From: Acidobacteriota bacterium
GTDB taxonomy: Bacteria > Acidobacteriota > Terriglobia > Acidiferrales > UBA7541
Direction of reading: 5' to 3'
NCBI GenBank assembly: GCA_003225315.1
Contig: QHZD01000040.1
Location: 1 to 52,242 of the forward strand
Length of the DNA: 52,242 nt
Below, one piece after another: positions 40,711-44,201 of the stretch. The stretch's first letter is position 1; each line of letters starts with the position of its first letter. The notes under the pieces are model-generated. The model saw only the letters and a list, made by a program, of their open reading frames with translations. It searched no databases and was not told the DNA's origin. A program made the position numbers and the translations under genes.

Positions 40711-41213
40711 GCTCAGTTACCCCCGTAGGACTGGTCCAAGCAAATGCTATCCGCCGACACGAATTGCGACTTATTTCTGACTCTTTGCTCGCTTTTCCGA
40801 CCAGATCAACTCCAAAAAGGCAAATCAAGAGATAGCCTCGTCTCCGTCGAGCCACCGTGGCTGAAGGCGGAAAATTCTTTATTCAATGCAGGTGCCGGAA
40901 GTCAGTAGGGAAACAGGGTTCTTCAAGTCATTGCTCCACCACAGGTTAAACGTTTTGTTTTGAGGGTAACGAGACAGCCCGACTCGAACTAGCGAAGGCA
41001 AAACGTGTGACGAGTCACCGGATTGTGGTGCCGCTCTCCTGCTTGTTGGATGCTCCTTGACTTGTCCCCCCTCTCTGTTGAAGGTCGCAAATTCTAAGTG
41101 TGGTCGGGAAACCGACCACCATAGACCGACTACCTCAAGACCTCCCGCACGTTTCGTAACCTACCCGCGGGTCCGTATTCACCGGGTCCCAGATTTCATC
41201 TCAGGAGAAAAAA
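40711..41213. other. long upstream region of the peptide-precursor gene
   Basis: About 500 bases with no convincing gene. It holds a perfect hairpin (41100-41119) near its right end and the RBS caggaga just before the precursor ATG. The rest is featureless to my reading. Confidence 0.55.
41100..41119 (+). promoter_or_regulatory. 8-bp hairpin with GAAA tetraloop in peptide-gene leader
   Basis: gtggtcgg (41100-41107) and ccgaccac (41112-41119) pair perfectly around the tetraloop gaaa. It lies 95 bases before the peptide ATG. It may be part of a structured mRNA leader. A short echo, gaccgac, follows at 41124. Confidence 0.5.
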
Positions 41214-41549
41214 ATGTTTTCCAAAAAGGGAATGTGTTTCTTTTTGTTTGTAACTGCCGTGCTTCTGCTCGCAACAGCTCCTGGTTCGTTCCAGGGGCAC
41301 AATCAGAACAATAAGGACAAGATTCGAGCCGACGGGACAGAACCGCCTCCACCGCCGATACCTTGGCCGTCAGGAACAACCGCCGTGCCGTTGTTCAAAG
41401 CTGATGGTACCGAGCCCCCGCCTCCTCCTATCCCTTGGGGCCAGGCCGTCACTGAGGGGAAATTCCAGAAGGTTCAGATTGCTGATGGGACAGAACCTCC
41501 TCCACCCCCGATACCTTGGCCAAAAAGCACAGTCGGAATCGCAGCATAG
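41214..41549 (+). CDS. secreted precursor peptide with three ADGTEPPPPPIPW repeats
   Basis: 111 residues, ATG 41214, RBS aggaga. A Sec signal peptide (FFLFVTAVLLLATAPGS, to about residue 25) precedes three exact copies of ADGTEPPPPPIPW at residues 39-51, 63-75 and 90-102, with variable spacers rich in Lys, Gln and Val. The third repeat nearly ends the protein. The copies differ at many synonymous codons, so the peptide sequence is under selection. Multi-copy motifs after a signal peptide recall pheromone or modified-peptide precursors. Function is unknown; the neighbours (membrane protein, unknown proteins, regulator) support a cassette. Confidence 0.8.
   Translation: MFSKKGMCFFLFVTAVLLLATAPGSFQGHNQNNKDKIRADGTEPPPPPIPWPSGTTAVPLFKADGTEPPPPPIPWGQAVTEGKFQKVQIADGTEPPPPPIPWPKSTVGIAA
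41328..41519 (+). repeat. three tandem-spaced 39-base coding repeats
   Basis: Repeat units at 41328-41366, 41400-41438 and 41481-41519 each encode the same 13 residues. Units 1 and 2 differ at 11 of 13 codons, 2 and 3 at 9, 1 and 3 at only 4, all synonymous. The units are old duplicates kept for their protein sequence. Confidence 0.9.
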
Positions 41550-41557
41550 CTGATCCT

Positions 41558-41594
41558 AATCGGGGAGAAGACTGCCGGAATCTTCTCCCCGATT
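41558..41594 (+). terminator. 14-bp stem-loop between peptide and membrane-protein genes
   Basis: aatcggggagaaga (41558-41571) pairs without a mismatch with tcttctccccgatt (41581-41594). It sits nine bases after the peptide stop and 35 before the next start. It has only a weak T tail (gtgtta), so it may attenuate transcription or protect the peptide message, letting the peptide be made in excess over the genes downstream. Confidence 0.75.
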
Positions 41595-41629
41595 GTGTTA
41601 CGCTTCACGCAAACCTCGAGGGGTTCAAG

Positions 41630-42391
41630 ATGTTGTCCTCACTGTTTTGGGTAACCGGGCTCGTTCTTGAGAGCGTCCTGTTGGTACGGGCACTGCAAGG
41701 GAATTTGCAGAAGTATTACAGTCTTTTCTATTTGTATTTGATTTCCGTTTTTCTCCGGTCAGCTTCCCTTTTTGTGATTTACCACTTGTGGCCAAACTTC
41801 TACTCGCCTGCGTATTGGTTCACCCAGTTCTTGATCGTCCTTCTGGGATGTGCGCTTGTTTGGGAGGTTTACAAGGTTGCGCTTGCACAGTATCTCGGTG
41901 CGGCTCGCATGGCACGCAACGTGCTTGCCTTCCTCTTCATCTTGGCAATCACAAGAATTTTCGTGAAAGCATGGAACAGCCCGAACTGGATCCCCGGAAG
42001 GACGACACTAGAAACGGAACGTGATTTGCGGATCGTGCAGTTGGCGCTTCTGATCGGTTTGGTTGGTCTTTTTGCCTCCTACGCAATTCCCCTGGGCCGA
42101 AATCTCAAAGGGATTATCTATGGTTACGGCCTGTTTATCGCTAGTAGCGTTGCTCACTTGACAATTAGGGATTATCTCGGAGACAGCTTCCAGCGCGCCT
42201 GGCAGTACATACAGCCCACCTGTTACCTCGTTGTTCTCGTGATGTGGTGTGCGACTCTGTGGTCCTATGCGCCAATTCCACAACCCACAAACGAGCCGCA
42301 ACTCGAAGCCGATTATGAGTCTTTGGTTGCCGCAACCAGGAGGAAACTGCATTCAGCGCGCAGTTACATCCTTAAGGCCATGCGACCATGA
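41630..42391 (+). CDS. seven-helix membrane protein of the peptide cassette
   Basis: 253 residues from ATG 41630 (gagggg RBS). About seven hydrophobic helices (near 3-20, 30-52, 61-81, 94-113, 133-153, 163-180, 195-213) and a cytosolic basic C-terminal helix. No known family is obvious to me. It follows the peptide gene and overlaps the next start by four bases. It could be a transporter, sensor or modification partner for the peptide. Confidence 0.75.
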   Translation: MLSSLFWVTGLVLESVLLVRALQGNLQKYYSLFYLYLISVFLRSASLFVIYHLWPNFYSPAYWFTQFLIVLLGCALVWEVYKVALAQYLGAARMARNVLAFLFILAITRIFVKAWNSPNWIPGRTTLETERDLRIVQLALLIGLVGLFASYAIPLGRNLKGIIYGYGLFIASSVAHLTIRDYLGDSFQRAWQYIQPTCYLVVLVMWCATLWSYAPIPQPTNEPQLEADYESLVAATRRKLHSARSYILKAMRP

Positions 42392-42960
42392 GTGTGCTTG
42401 CGTATTTTCTGCTGGCGGCAGTGATAATTGTGAGCGTTTGCTTACTCCTTTCGAGGCGTGGTGGGCGAAGAGATTTCGACTGGGAAGGCATTGGAACCGG
42501 GCAAGAAACTTCCCTTCCTGGTGGATGGGATTCCCTCGCTTCCGAACTGAGCGCCAGGATTTTCGATCCGGAAGACTTGAATTTTGTTGCGAGTGAAGCG
42601 TCCCGGCAACTTACGCGACAGTTTCGACGAGAGCGTACCATGCTCGCGCTTGACTGGCTGCGAGCAGTTCGCGGCCAAGTCAATCATTTGATTCGGGCTC
42701 ACCTCAGAGCCGCACGGGGAAACGCTGAGCTCAAGCCGGCGGAAGAAATAAAGCTGGGATTCGAGTTTCTTGTTTTTCAACTAACAAGCGGAATCCTCTA
42801 CTTAGTGATCTGGGCGTTCGGCCCTCCGCGTGCCGCAAAGCTTGTCGGATATTCACTGGAATTGGCCGGGCAAATGCGAAAGGTGACCGAAGATATCCTC
42901 CCAGCCGGTCGTCCGGTAGTCGCGGACTTAATGGACAGCAAACAGGAGCCGAAGAGCTAA
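42388..42960 (+). CDS. membrane-anchored protein of unknown function
   Basis: 190 residues, ATG 42388 overlapping the membrane protein stop. A single N-terminal helix (residues 4-21) is followed by a soluble helical region with paired basic stretches (LTRQFRRERTMLALDWLRAVRGQ), then a second hydrophobic segment (FEFLVFQLTSGILYLVIWAFG). Likely cytosolic face. No family recognised. It is co-transcribed with its neighbours. Confidence 0.7.
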   Translation: MSVLAYFLLAAVIIVSVCLLLSRRGGRRDFDWEGIGTGQETSLPGGWDSLASELSARIFDPEDLNFVASEASRQLTRQFRRERTMLALDWLRAVRGQVNHLIRAHLRAARGNAELKPAEEIKLGFEFLVFQLTSGILYLVIWAFGPPRAAKLVGYSLELAGQMRKVTEDILPAGRPVVADLMDSKQEPKS

Positions 42961-42982
42961 ATCGAAATTCGATAGCGTACGT

Positions 42983-43453
42983 ATGCACGGTGAACTCAAA
43001 CACGAAGATGTCGAGGCGGCTCGCAGGGATCTTGCGGATCGGACCTTGGCGAAGATTCGTGGAGATTTCGCCCGCCTGATATATCTGGCTTCTATGCGCG
43101 ACTACAATACGGGCGAGTACCACCACGAAGGGCTCGCTTGCCGGTTCAGCGAGAGCGTTGCTGGAAGGGCTATTGGGAGTTGCCATCATGACGCGTTTAG
43201 GCGGTTGGTTCTCTACTCGGTAAAACAACTTGTCGAGGAACTTGAACTTTACGCTGATTCCAACTGCACTACAGCCTCCGAGCTTGTTCGAGTTTGGGAG
43301 AAGCTGCAGCCTTACAGAATCGCAGTCCCCTTGGAATGCGGTCCGGTCGTGGCTCGTTTTTTTGCCTCAAATATCAGGGCCGCTTTGGCAATCTTGCAGT
43401 CTCGGCAGTTGCGGGCTCGTCGGGAGGAACTATCCGCATTGCCAAGCCCGTGA
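42983..43453 (+). CDS. helical protein of unknown function
   Basis: 156 residues from ATG 42983, 22 bases after the previous stop. Mostly helical with conserved-looking Cys/His spots (EYHHEGLACRF, GSCHHDAFRRLVLY). No domain recognised. Its last 80 bases overlap the 3' end of the converging regulator gene. Confidence 0.6.
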   Translation: MHGELKHEDVEAARRDLADRTLAKIRGDFARLIYLASMRDYNTGEYHHEGLACRFSESVAGRAIGSCHHDAFRRLVLYSVKQLVEELELYADSNCTTASELVRVWEKLQPYRIAVPLECGPVVARFFASNIRAALAILQSRQLRARREELSALPSP

Positions 43454-44201
43454 CACGCCCCACGATTTCAGCTTCGCTTTCGTATTTGAATTGGCGAATC
43501 GCGCACCCTGATGATGGATGAGGAACCAGCATGAGCTGACTTCCTTGGAGTTCGCACCAAGAACACACATAACCGTCACGCAATTCCACGAAATAGATCG
43601 GCCGCTCATACTCCGTCTGCCATTTGAGCGGTAGTATCTTTTTAACGTTCGGGTCAATTTGCACAAAAGAGCCGGGGCGCAAAAGAGGGTACAAGGTCCT
43701 GTCTTCCAGCCCGATGTACCCGTACATGCTATGCCGGACATCCAGATGTTGGATGACTGCTATCGGCACTTCGCCCCAGATTTCCACCATACGGGACAAG
43801 AGGTTTGTCTTATCCCTGTTGAATCCCCGGTCAAAGCGGACCGGGAAAGTAACCGTCCCGGTCTGGTCAAAAACTTCGACAGGCGTCAAGTGGGTCTGCG
43901 GAAGCGGCATCTCAATCTGTAGCTTGTTGATCTTCTGAACGTCCACACCATAGAGCTGAAGAAGATCGCCGAATTTGACATGGTAGATGACGCTCAAGCT
44001 ATAGAGCTTGTAAATGCTCGGGATGGACTCCGAGTTCTCAATCTCTGTAAGCCACGCGTTAGAGATGTGGAACTCCTGATTCCCCTCGGAATCTATAATT
44101 TTCTGGCTCAGATCTGTGACATCGCGTGTGGTCATTCCGAGCCGCAAGCGAAGTTCCTTTAGCTGTTCACCCGCGCGCAAGATTGATTTGGTTTCCGACA
44201 T
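43374..44201 (-). CDS. HTH regulator with S24/LexA-like C-terminal domain
   Basis: 275 residues from ATG 44201; the longer frame to 44333 is rejected. An XRE-type HTH covers about residues 9-80: AGEQLKELRLRLGMTTRDVTDLSQ, ISNAWLTEIENSESIPSIYKLYSLS. The C-terminal part (about 155-255) follows the S24-like pattern (LLRPGSFVQIDPNVKKI, PIYFVELRDGYVCSWCEL), but a catalytic Ser/Lys pair is not evident. It likely represses DNA nearby and senses a ligand or peptide. It converges with the peptide cassette. Confidence 0.8.
   Translation of the reverse strand: MSETKSILRAGEQLKELRLRLGMTTRDVTDLSQKIIDSEGNQEFHISNAWLTEIENSESIPSIYKLYSLSVIYHVKFGDLLQLYGVDVQKINKLQIEMPLPQTHLTPVEVFDQTGTVTFPVRFDRGFNRDKTNLLSRMVEIWGEVPIAVIQHLDVRHSMYGYIGLEDRTLYPLLRPGSFVQIDPNVKKILPLKWQTEYERPIYFVELRDGYVCSWCELQGSQLMLVPHPSSGCAIRQFKYESEAEIVGRVTGLAMRIVPPDEPATAETARLPKRP

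Follow-up and report, generated by a model that had tools for sequence, protein, structure and literature searches.

In fungi, the alpha-factor precursor carries several copies of its peptide divided by spacers, and Ste2 is the seven-helix receptor. Agr and the RRNPP systems Rap/Phr and PlcR/PapR are peptide systems of Gram-positive bacteria, and bacterial receptors of the 7TMR-DISM and LytS types combine their membrane part and signalling domains in a single chain. Seven-helix proteins of these two types have been proposed or shown to act as receptors (RgsP, 7TMR-DISM, PMC6107284; BtsS, LytS-type, PMC10653868). Here we describe a locus from an Acidobacteriota bacterium (assembly GCA_003225315.1, contig QHZD01000040.1), analysed within a stretch of 52,242 nucleotides which we call the window. 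A gene for a small precursor is followed on the same strand by genes for a seven-helix protein (7TM) and two further proteins (P3 and P4), on which the gene of a regulator (P5) converges from the opposite strand. The best explanation for this cassette, to which we assign a probability of roughly 60 %, is that secreted peptides are sensed by 7TM and that P5 controls the peptide gene. As far as can be judged, it is a bacterial system of peptide signalling that has not been described; the titles and abstract openings covered by our literature search (with few subscription papers and no bioRxiv preprints in its scope) contained no description of such a system.

The cassette resembles the alpha-factor/Ste2 pair in its precursor, apparently exported and bearing spaced copies of a short peptide, and in the dedicated seven-helix protein with a predicted N-out/C-in topology; the Ste2 structure 7ad3 occupies row 17 of the Foldseek listing for 7TM. 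It differs in being bacterial, in the adjacency of the genes, in that no G protein was seen and no sequence relation found, and in having a helix-turn-helix (HTH) regulator and a palindrome that would close the loop. With Agr and the RRNPP systems it shares the small, apparently exported precursor beside a regulator and the differing specificities, but no histidine kinase, AgrB-like protease or TPR receptor was found in the cassette and the window core lacks cysteine. The first two were absent from the Pfam and NCBIfam matches of the five window proteins, and no TPR model was present among the eight families matching 34 P5 members (HTH and a few stray single matches). Unlike the 7TMR-DISM and LytS-type receptors, 7TM showed no signalling-domain model among the Pfam matches of 42 members.

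The sequence-only reading had noticed a triple-repeat precursor with a signal peptide, and this description holds. The N-terminus is signal-peptide-like by a crude hydrophobicity measure (no dedicated predictor was used), and the 111-residue protein carries three identical 13-residue copies of ADGTEPPPPPIPW, whose average mass, calculated for the unmodified peptide, is 1373.5 Da. At the DNA level, the 41-nt copies 2 and 3 show 68 % and 90 % identity to copy 1 and every difference within the 13 codons is synonymous (proportion of differing sites: synonymous, pS, 0.77; nonsynonymous, pN, 0.00). Because the DNA has diverged with synonymous changes only, the copies are not recent duplications. Across 23 multi-copy precursors, copies within one precursor differ at 48.3 % of synonymous sites (pS 0.483) and 2.1 % of nonsynonymous sites (pN 0.021), where delimiting the repeat units by near-identity has a lowering effect on pN and one copy each of L109 and L113 was missed. 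This pattern rules out a chance repeat. The peptide is conserved within each precursor, whereas the cores vary between cassettes, and the computation shows that selection acts on the core sequence. The number of copies per precursor ranges from one to ten, with the maximum in L143. A precursor search gave matches in 21 of 121 genomes (E ≤ 0.01); the five matches below 1e-6, the home genome included, all adjoin a 7TM match, and the weaker ones are mixed. At one locus (L131), a distant 7TM gene is preceded by three tandem, nearly identical small signal-peptide-like open reading frames (ORFs), one of them with an unread base.

To describe linkage, we searched 121 related genomes with profiles of 7TM, P4 and P5, counting matches within 5 kb as near, and obtained matches in 95, 74 and 79 genomes, respectively. 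P4 matches lay near a P5 match in 107 of 114 cases and near a 7TM among the matches listed in 101; for P5, 110 of 133 were near P4 and 104 near a listed 7TM. Among the 150 listed 7TM matches, 101 were near P4 and 101 near P5, the remainder being mostly weaker, distant members, and 27 of the 150, checked apart, never shared a contig with a P4 match or a leftover P5 match. The first proximity count had used every P4 and P5 row with 123 of these 150 7TM rows, a choice that took in some weak rows close to P4 and omitted others. The home genome, which contains the contig with the cassette, is 4.98 Mb in size. Its five 7TM-P3-P4-P5 cassettes (the window and contigs C29, C7, C1 and C9) hold all five P4 and all six P5 matches, and a sixth, distant 7TM match (C19) has neither; a precursor was recognised in four of the five, each with a different core. 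In an even draw across the phylum, the 7TM profile matched at least 52 of 396 genomes, a lower bound since six candidates were scored per genome. A scan with a P4 pattern returned 52 stretches, of which 45 were confirmed, all from Acidobacteriota or groups inside the phylum.

A set of 45 loci fetched via P4 alone contained 38 full-length 7TM ORFs (split or short ones, e.g. in L120, were skipped), and 32 could be assessed, as six lacked upstream sequence. A small signal-peptide-like ORF preceded 31 of the 32 and was missing in one; the strict motif was present in 25 of these ORFs, and the other six looked proline-rich by eye. Among 29 loci fetched via 7TM alone, which are the best-scoring 7TM loci, 20 had the motif, four a small signal-peptide-like ORF only and five neither. 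Near-duplicate cassettes were kept in these counts and the motif was written after examples had been seen; as a background, 33 of 354 comparable ORFs from other parts of these loci carry it. An earlier regional fetch of 20 regions had given a precursor candidate in 15 (doubtful in L072). This is a conserved cassette of soil Acidobacteriota, sometimes present several times per genome, and the precursor belongs to it. The co-occurrence that the sequence-only reading had proposed to check was thus found, such precursors occurring next to these neighbour families across many Acidobacteriota. The motif was found neither mostly apart from these neighbours nor inside a larger structural protein, the latter being ruled out by the 111-residue precursor and the conserved cassette.

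Some relatives are incomplete. In a near relative (L079, 5380-7234), DNA similarity starts only at window position 42362, where the 7TM gene is ending. The fetched stretch thus lacks the precursor and the greater part of 7TM; a stop breaks the P3 frame, and P4 and P5 are intact. Two further loci (L085 and L122) have P4 and P5 pairs with no 7TM gene in the fetched stretch, which reaches 6 kb upstream in L085 and includes little before P4 in L122.

The core covaries with 7TM. For this test, 56 cassettes with a DG-type core and all four genes were thinned by 7TM distance to 37, from which L052 (no core) was removed together with one spurious core of L115. Over the resulting 36 cassettes, core distance correlated with 7TM distance (r 0.43), and the partial correlations given P3, P4 and P5 were 0.33, 0.32 and 0.37 (p 0.002 each, the smallest attainable). 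Conversely, the core correlated negatively with P3, P4 and P5 given 7TM (-0.10, -0.14 and -0.21). With mean distances of 0.73 for P3 and 0.65 for 7TM, P3 is the faster-evolving protein, and therefore rate alone cannot account for the core-7TM pairing. The C-terminal tail of 7TM adds no covariation (0.02). When all 37 cassettes were run, the pattern was unchanged and most values were lower (0.21, 0.27 and 0.42 for 7TM given P3, P4 and P5). The covariation fits a ligand and its partner, and would do so whether 7TM is a receptor, confers immunity or processes the peptide.

An adjacent, covarying pair of this kind could also serve antagonism and self-protection, in which the secreted peptide harms relatives or competitors, 7TM shields the producer and P5 controls production. 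The reach of the covariation beyond the outer face of 7TM agrees with this explanation, and so do the multi-copy precursors and the several cassettes per genome with different cores. We nevertheless consider it unlikely, though, like the processing explanation below, a live rival. With a calculated charge of -2.2 the window core is acidic, in contrast to the cationic proline-rich antimicrobials; neither a dedicated exporter nor a modifying enzyme was seen; and the retention of P3, P4 and P5 with 7TM is more than an immunity gene requires. Defence models were unmatched except for a weak HTH match of P5 (0.0065), on which ground a defence system was rejected.

The signalling explanation also draws on a palindrome (7-4-7, 7/7) which begins 113 nt upstream of the start codon of the window precursor. 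A 7/7 palindrome was found 102-131 nt upstream of 11 of 36 precursors (0.21 expected) and one of at least 6/7 upstream of 19 of them (3.9 expected), in a set where many cassettes are related and from which L068 was left out for its short upstream sequence. The third base of the half-site covaries with the P5 residue after 'EN'. With G (TGGT-type), this residue is S or T in 15 of 15 scorable sites; with C, it is K or R in 11 of 15, the others being T, N, S and S. The third base played no part in the choice of sites except via symmetry. This count includes near-duplicates and is limited to sites with a score of at least 12; L092 and L063 could not be scored, and for L060, which has two P5 genes, the residue may have been read from the other one. 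Both the enrichment of the palindrome and its covariation with P5 are shown by computation.

Regarding P5 itself, the converging HTH/S24 regulator of the sequence-only reading was borne out in its first half, as HTH models match across the 34 P5 members. The S24 part is plausible and weakly supported: the C-terminal part had no Pfam match, and its profile, compared with those of five S24 proteins out of 24 S24 places found, gave P 4.7e-5 with a probability of 41 %, which is weak. P5 would resemble S24/LexA-type regulators in combining an N-terminal HTH with a possibly S24-like C-terminal part, and differ from them in the replaced Ser/Lys pair. With the register set by eye, the 34 sequences do not show the catalytic pair: the serine position holds T in 22, M in three, S in three (L109, L113 and L077), W in two, R in two, Y in one and N in one, and the lysine position is occupied by W in 33 sequences and by F in the remaining one. 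Self-cleavage is therefore not expected.

The home genome has three copies of the exact site TGGTYGGNNNNCCRACCA and none of a control pattern; the copies stand before the window precursor, before the C29 precursor and 129 nt upstream of the start of a gene for an extracytoplasmic function (ECF) sigma factor, whose following gene has an anti-sigma RskA_C match slightly under the cut-off. A relative (G013) has two more sites close to other ECF genes; one overlaps the 5′ end of the ORF of its ECF gene and the other is about 510 nt upstream. When 29 distinct sites were placed, 11 stood before precursors (for G013:C38 as judged solely from where 7TM lies), three close to ECF genes and six upstream of a gene that by eye is oxidoreductase-like, with nine left over. 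In these six (L200, L207, L212, L213, L214 and L216), a TGGTYGG-type palindrome stands 193-205 nt before the gene; the sites may be unrelated or belong to another regulator. A looser half-site pattern gave 30 matches in the home genome against 10 for the control, too many for a regulon reading, and was rejected. A second palindrome with one mismatch (L198:4040-4057) lies 412 nt from the site before the home ECF sigma gene.

The seven-helix protein noticed in the sequence was recovered as a confident structure model, with a predicted local distance difference test score (pLDDT) of 86 and a predicted template modelling score (pTM) of 0.80. Mean lysine plus arginine per loop was 2.0-2.6 on the predicted inside and 1.0-1.6 on the predicted outside, and this enrichment of the inner loops suggests the N-out/C-in topology. 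Of 50 listed Foldseek rows, 49 were G-protein-coupled receptor (GPCR) chains, with class B peptide-hormone receptors first, and one was a designed GPCR-like fold. A VIA comparison gave a best Z of 13.2 (root mean square deviation 4.4 over 204 residues), inside the range warned of for helical bundles. In the model, 7TM resembles a GPCR in arrangement, as a weak match, and we claim neither homology nor descent; no GPCR family was present among the Pfam matches of 42 members (E ≤ 0.1) or in a PDB sequence search.

Covariation with a substrate is expected of an enzyme as well, and 7TM and P3 could mature, attach or assemble a proline-rich product at the cell surface, in an exosortase/PEP-CTERM-like manner; surface material often contains repeats and proline-rich stretches. 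This seems improbable to us, as no catalytic-looking conserved set was seen and W206 is the only invariant residue in the 42 7TM sequences. An exosortase link was rejected, since a single one of the 42 members touches the archaeosortase model (0.003) and P0002 gave none. Moreover, no membrane anchor follows the window core, though some distant precursors (e.g. L136-L139) end in a hydrophobic stretch. A ribosomally synthesised, modified peptide natural product, of which some precursors are known to have repeated cores, is very improbable and was rejected as first choice, because no modifying enzyme was found in the cassette or in ten scanned neighbouring ORFs (other neighbours were not scanned) and the cassette genes match no family of such products.

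Several observations weigh against peptide signalling. Among the matches listed, 49 of 150 7TM have no P4 within 5 kb, and the same is true of 23 of the 133 P5 matches. No precursor was recognised in five of the 20 regions fetched first (L061, L065, L069, L070 and L071) or in five of the 29 loci fetched via 7TM (L135, L145, L147, L149 and L151). The fold match is weak, none of the listed Foldseek rows being below 1e-3 and TMq not exceeding 0.45 (about 0.44). Covariation extends beyond the outer face of 7TM (0.17 for the outer half given the inner, p 0.016, and 0.12 for the reverse, p 0.086), and in the loops alone inner given outer (0.22) about equals outer given inner (0.18). Only cassettes with a DG-type core entered the test, and the Mantel procedure may err on the liberal side. 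Many of the palindromes are found at other places, and the 29 distinct sites (21 of 121 genomes) compare with seven for the control pattern. The home ECF gene was matched in just one other of the 121 genomes (E ≤ 1e-40), and for this reason an output of P5 to ECF genes is tentative. Finally, 7TM, P3 and P4 have no known signalling domain that would explain the step from the membrane to P5.

Under the signalling explanation, the precursor would be exported via its signal-peptide-like start and cut by a protease encoded elsewhere into several short, acidic, proline-rich peptides around ADGTEPPPPPIPW. The conserved adjacency and the covariation point to 7TM as the matched receptor, and P3, perhaps with P4, may relay the signal, as their conserved linkage suggests. 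P5 would bind the palindrome upstream of the precursor gene, in line with the covariation of site and protein, and set peptide output in a feedback loop; in the home genome it probably also controls the ECF sigma gene. The several home cassettes with differing cores would act as parallel channels. Export, cleavage, binding, relay and regulation are all steps that we infer, and P5 may activate or repress. The sequence-only reading had left the choice between a new signalling and a natural-product system. The first is favoured by the core-7TM covariation, the palindrome/P5 covariation and the ECF sites, and the second is disfavoured by the lack of a modifying enzyme or ABC exporter in the cassette and ten scanned neighbours, which are not all the neighbours.

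P3, read as membrane-anchored, has a single N-terminal hydrophobic stretch and a soluble part (by eye). The invariant residues of P4 include D16, R39, Y46, H48, H68 and W105; its fold search gave a best Foldseek E of 0.76 and a best VIA Z of 4.9, from which no new fold is implied. PDB sequence searches with 7TM, P4 and P3 returned nothing useful. In Pfam and NCBIfam, no match of the five window proteins attains the cut-off. Below it were DUF2615 for the precursor (0.7), DUF7260 (0.022) and aCcr1 (0.027) for P4 and HTH models for P5 (0.003 or above), with nothing at E ≤ 1 for 7TM and P3; relatives of the cassette proteins gave HTH models for P5 and otherwise stray isolated matches.

The layout (Table 1) agrees with the three same-direction genes without family placement and the overlap of the first two that had been read from the sequence, 7TM and P3 sharing 4 nt. 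P5 overlaps P4 by 80 nt (43374-43453), and an overlap of the two 3′ ends on opposite strands, 44-116 bp long, was present in 50 of 50 pairs measured, in which one and the same cassette is counted twice (L127 and L160).

Table 1. Features of the peptide cassette, with positions in the window.
Feature	Position	Strand	Remark
Palindrome, 18 bp, TGGTCGGGAAACCGACCA	41101-41118	.	candidate P5 operator; 7/7 half-site match
Precursor, 111 aa	41214-41549	+	signal-peptide-like N-terminus, 3 core copies
Core copy 1, ADGTEPPPPPIPW	41328-41366	+	
Core copy 2, ADGTEPPPPPIPW	41400-41438	+	
Core copy 3, ADGTEPPPPPIPW	41481-41519	+	
Hairpin, perfect 14-bp stem, 3′ of precursor stop	41558-41594	+	putative role, see text
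TGTTACGCTT, TGYTANNMTT as it appears in the window, after the hairpin and before 7TM	41596-41605	+	extended -10-like; putative role, see text
7TM, 253 aa	41630-42391	+	predicted N-out/C-in; putative peptide receptor
P3, 190 aa	42388-42960	+	putative relay partner
P4, 156 aa	42983-43453	+	all-helical model
P5, 275 aa	43374-44201	-	HTH, C-terminal part possibly S24/LexA-like; putative output regulator

The upstream palindrome, the hairpin and the short motif before the 7TM gene go beyond what had been noticed from the sequence. The hairpin has a z of -3.0 in the window and a mean z of -2.4 over 37 cassettes, with 22 of the 37 below -2. It is followed in 23 of the 37, against 0.18 expected by mononucleotide shuffling, by TGYTANNMTT, a pattern formulated after the sequences were seen. 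A simple promoter and terminator scan did not list the hairpin and gave fewer sites than in shuffles. The hairpin could be a terminator, an attenuator or an mRNA end, and together with the motif it may allow separate dosing of the peptide and 7TM messages.

Acidobacteriota are abundant soil bacteria, and in a broader and more tentative version of the signalling explanation, which we consider somewhat less likely than not, the cassettes would make up a peptide-pheromone language of this phylum: a precursor-matched, GPCR-shaped 7TM without a G protein, a relay through P3 and P4, and a non-cleaving LexA-like regulator of the peptide gene whose control would in certain genomes extend to ECF sigma genes, with four to five channels per genome possible. 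At the level of logic, this would be one more peptide-signalling system, and its novelty lies in four proteins without a Pfam or NCBIfam placement, the fifth, P5, being placed by its HTH only. If true, it would add a class of peptide receptors unlike the known bacterial ones and a catalogue of matched peptide/7TM pairs, whose short peptides could be directly synthesised and tested.

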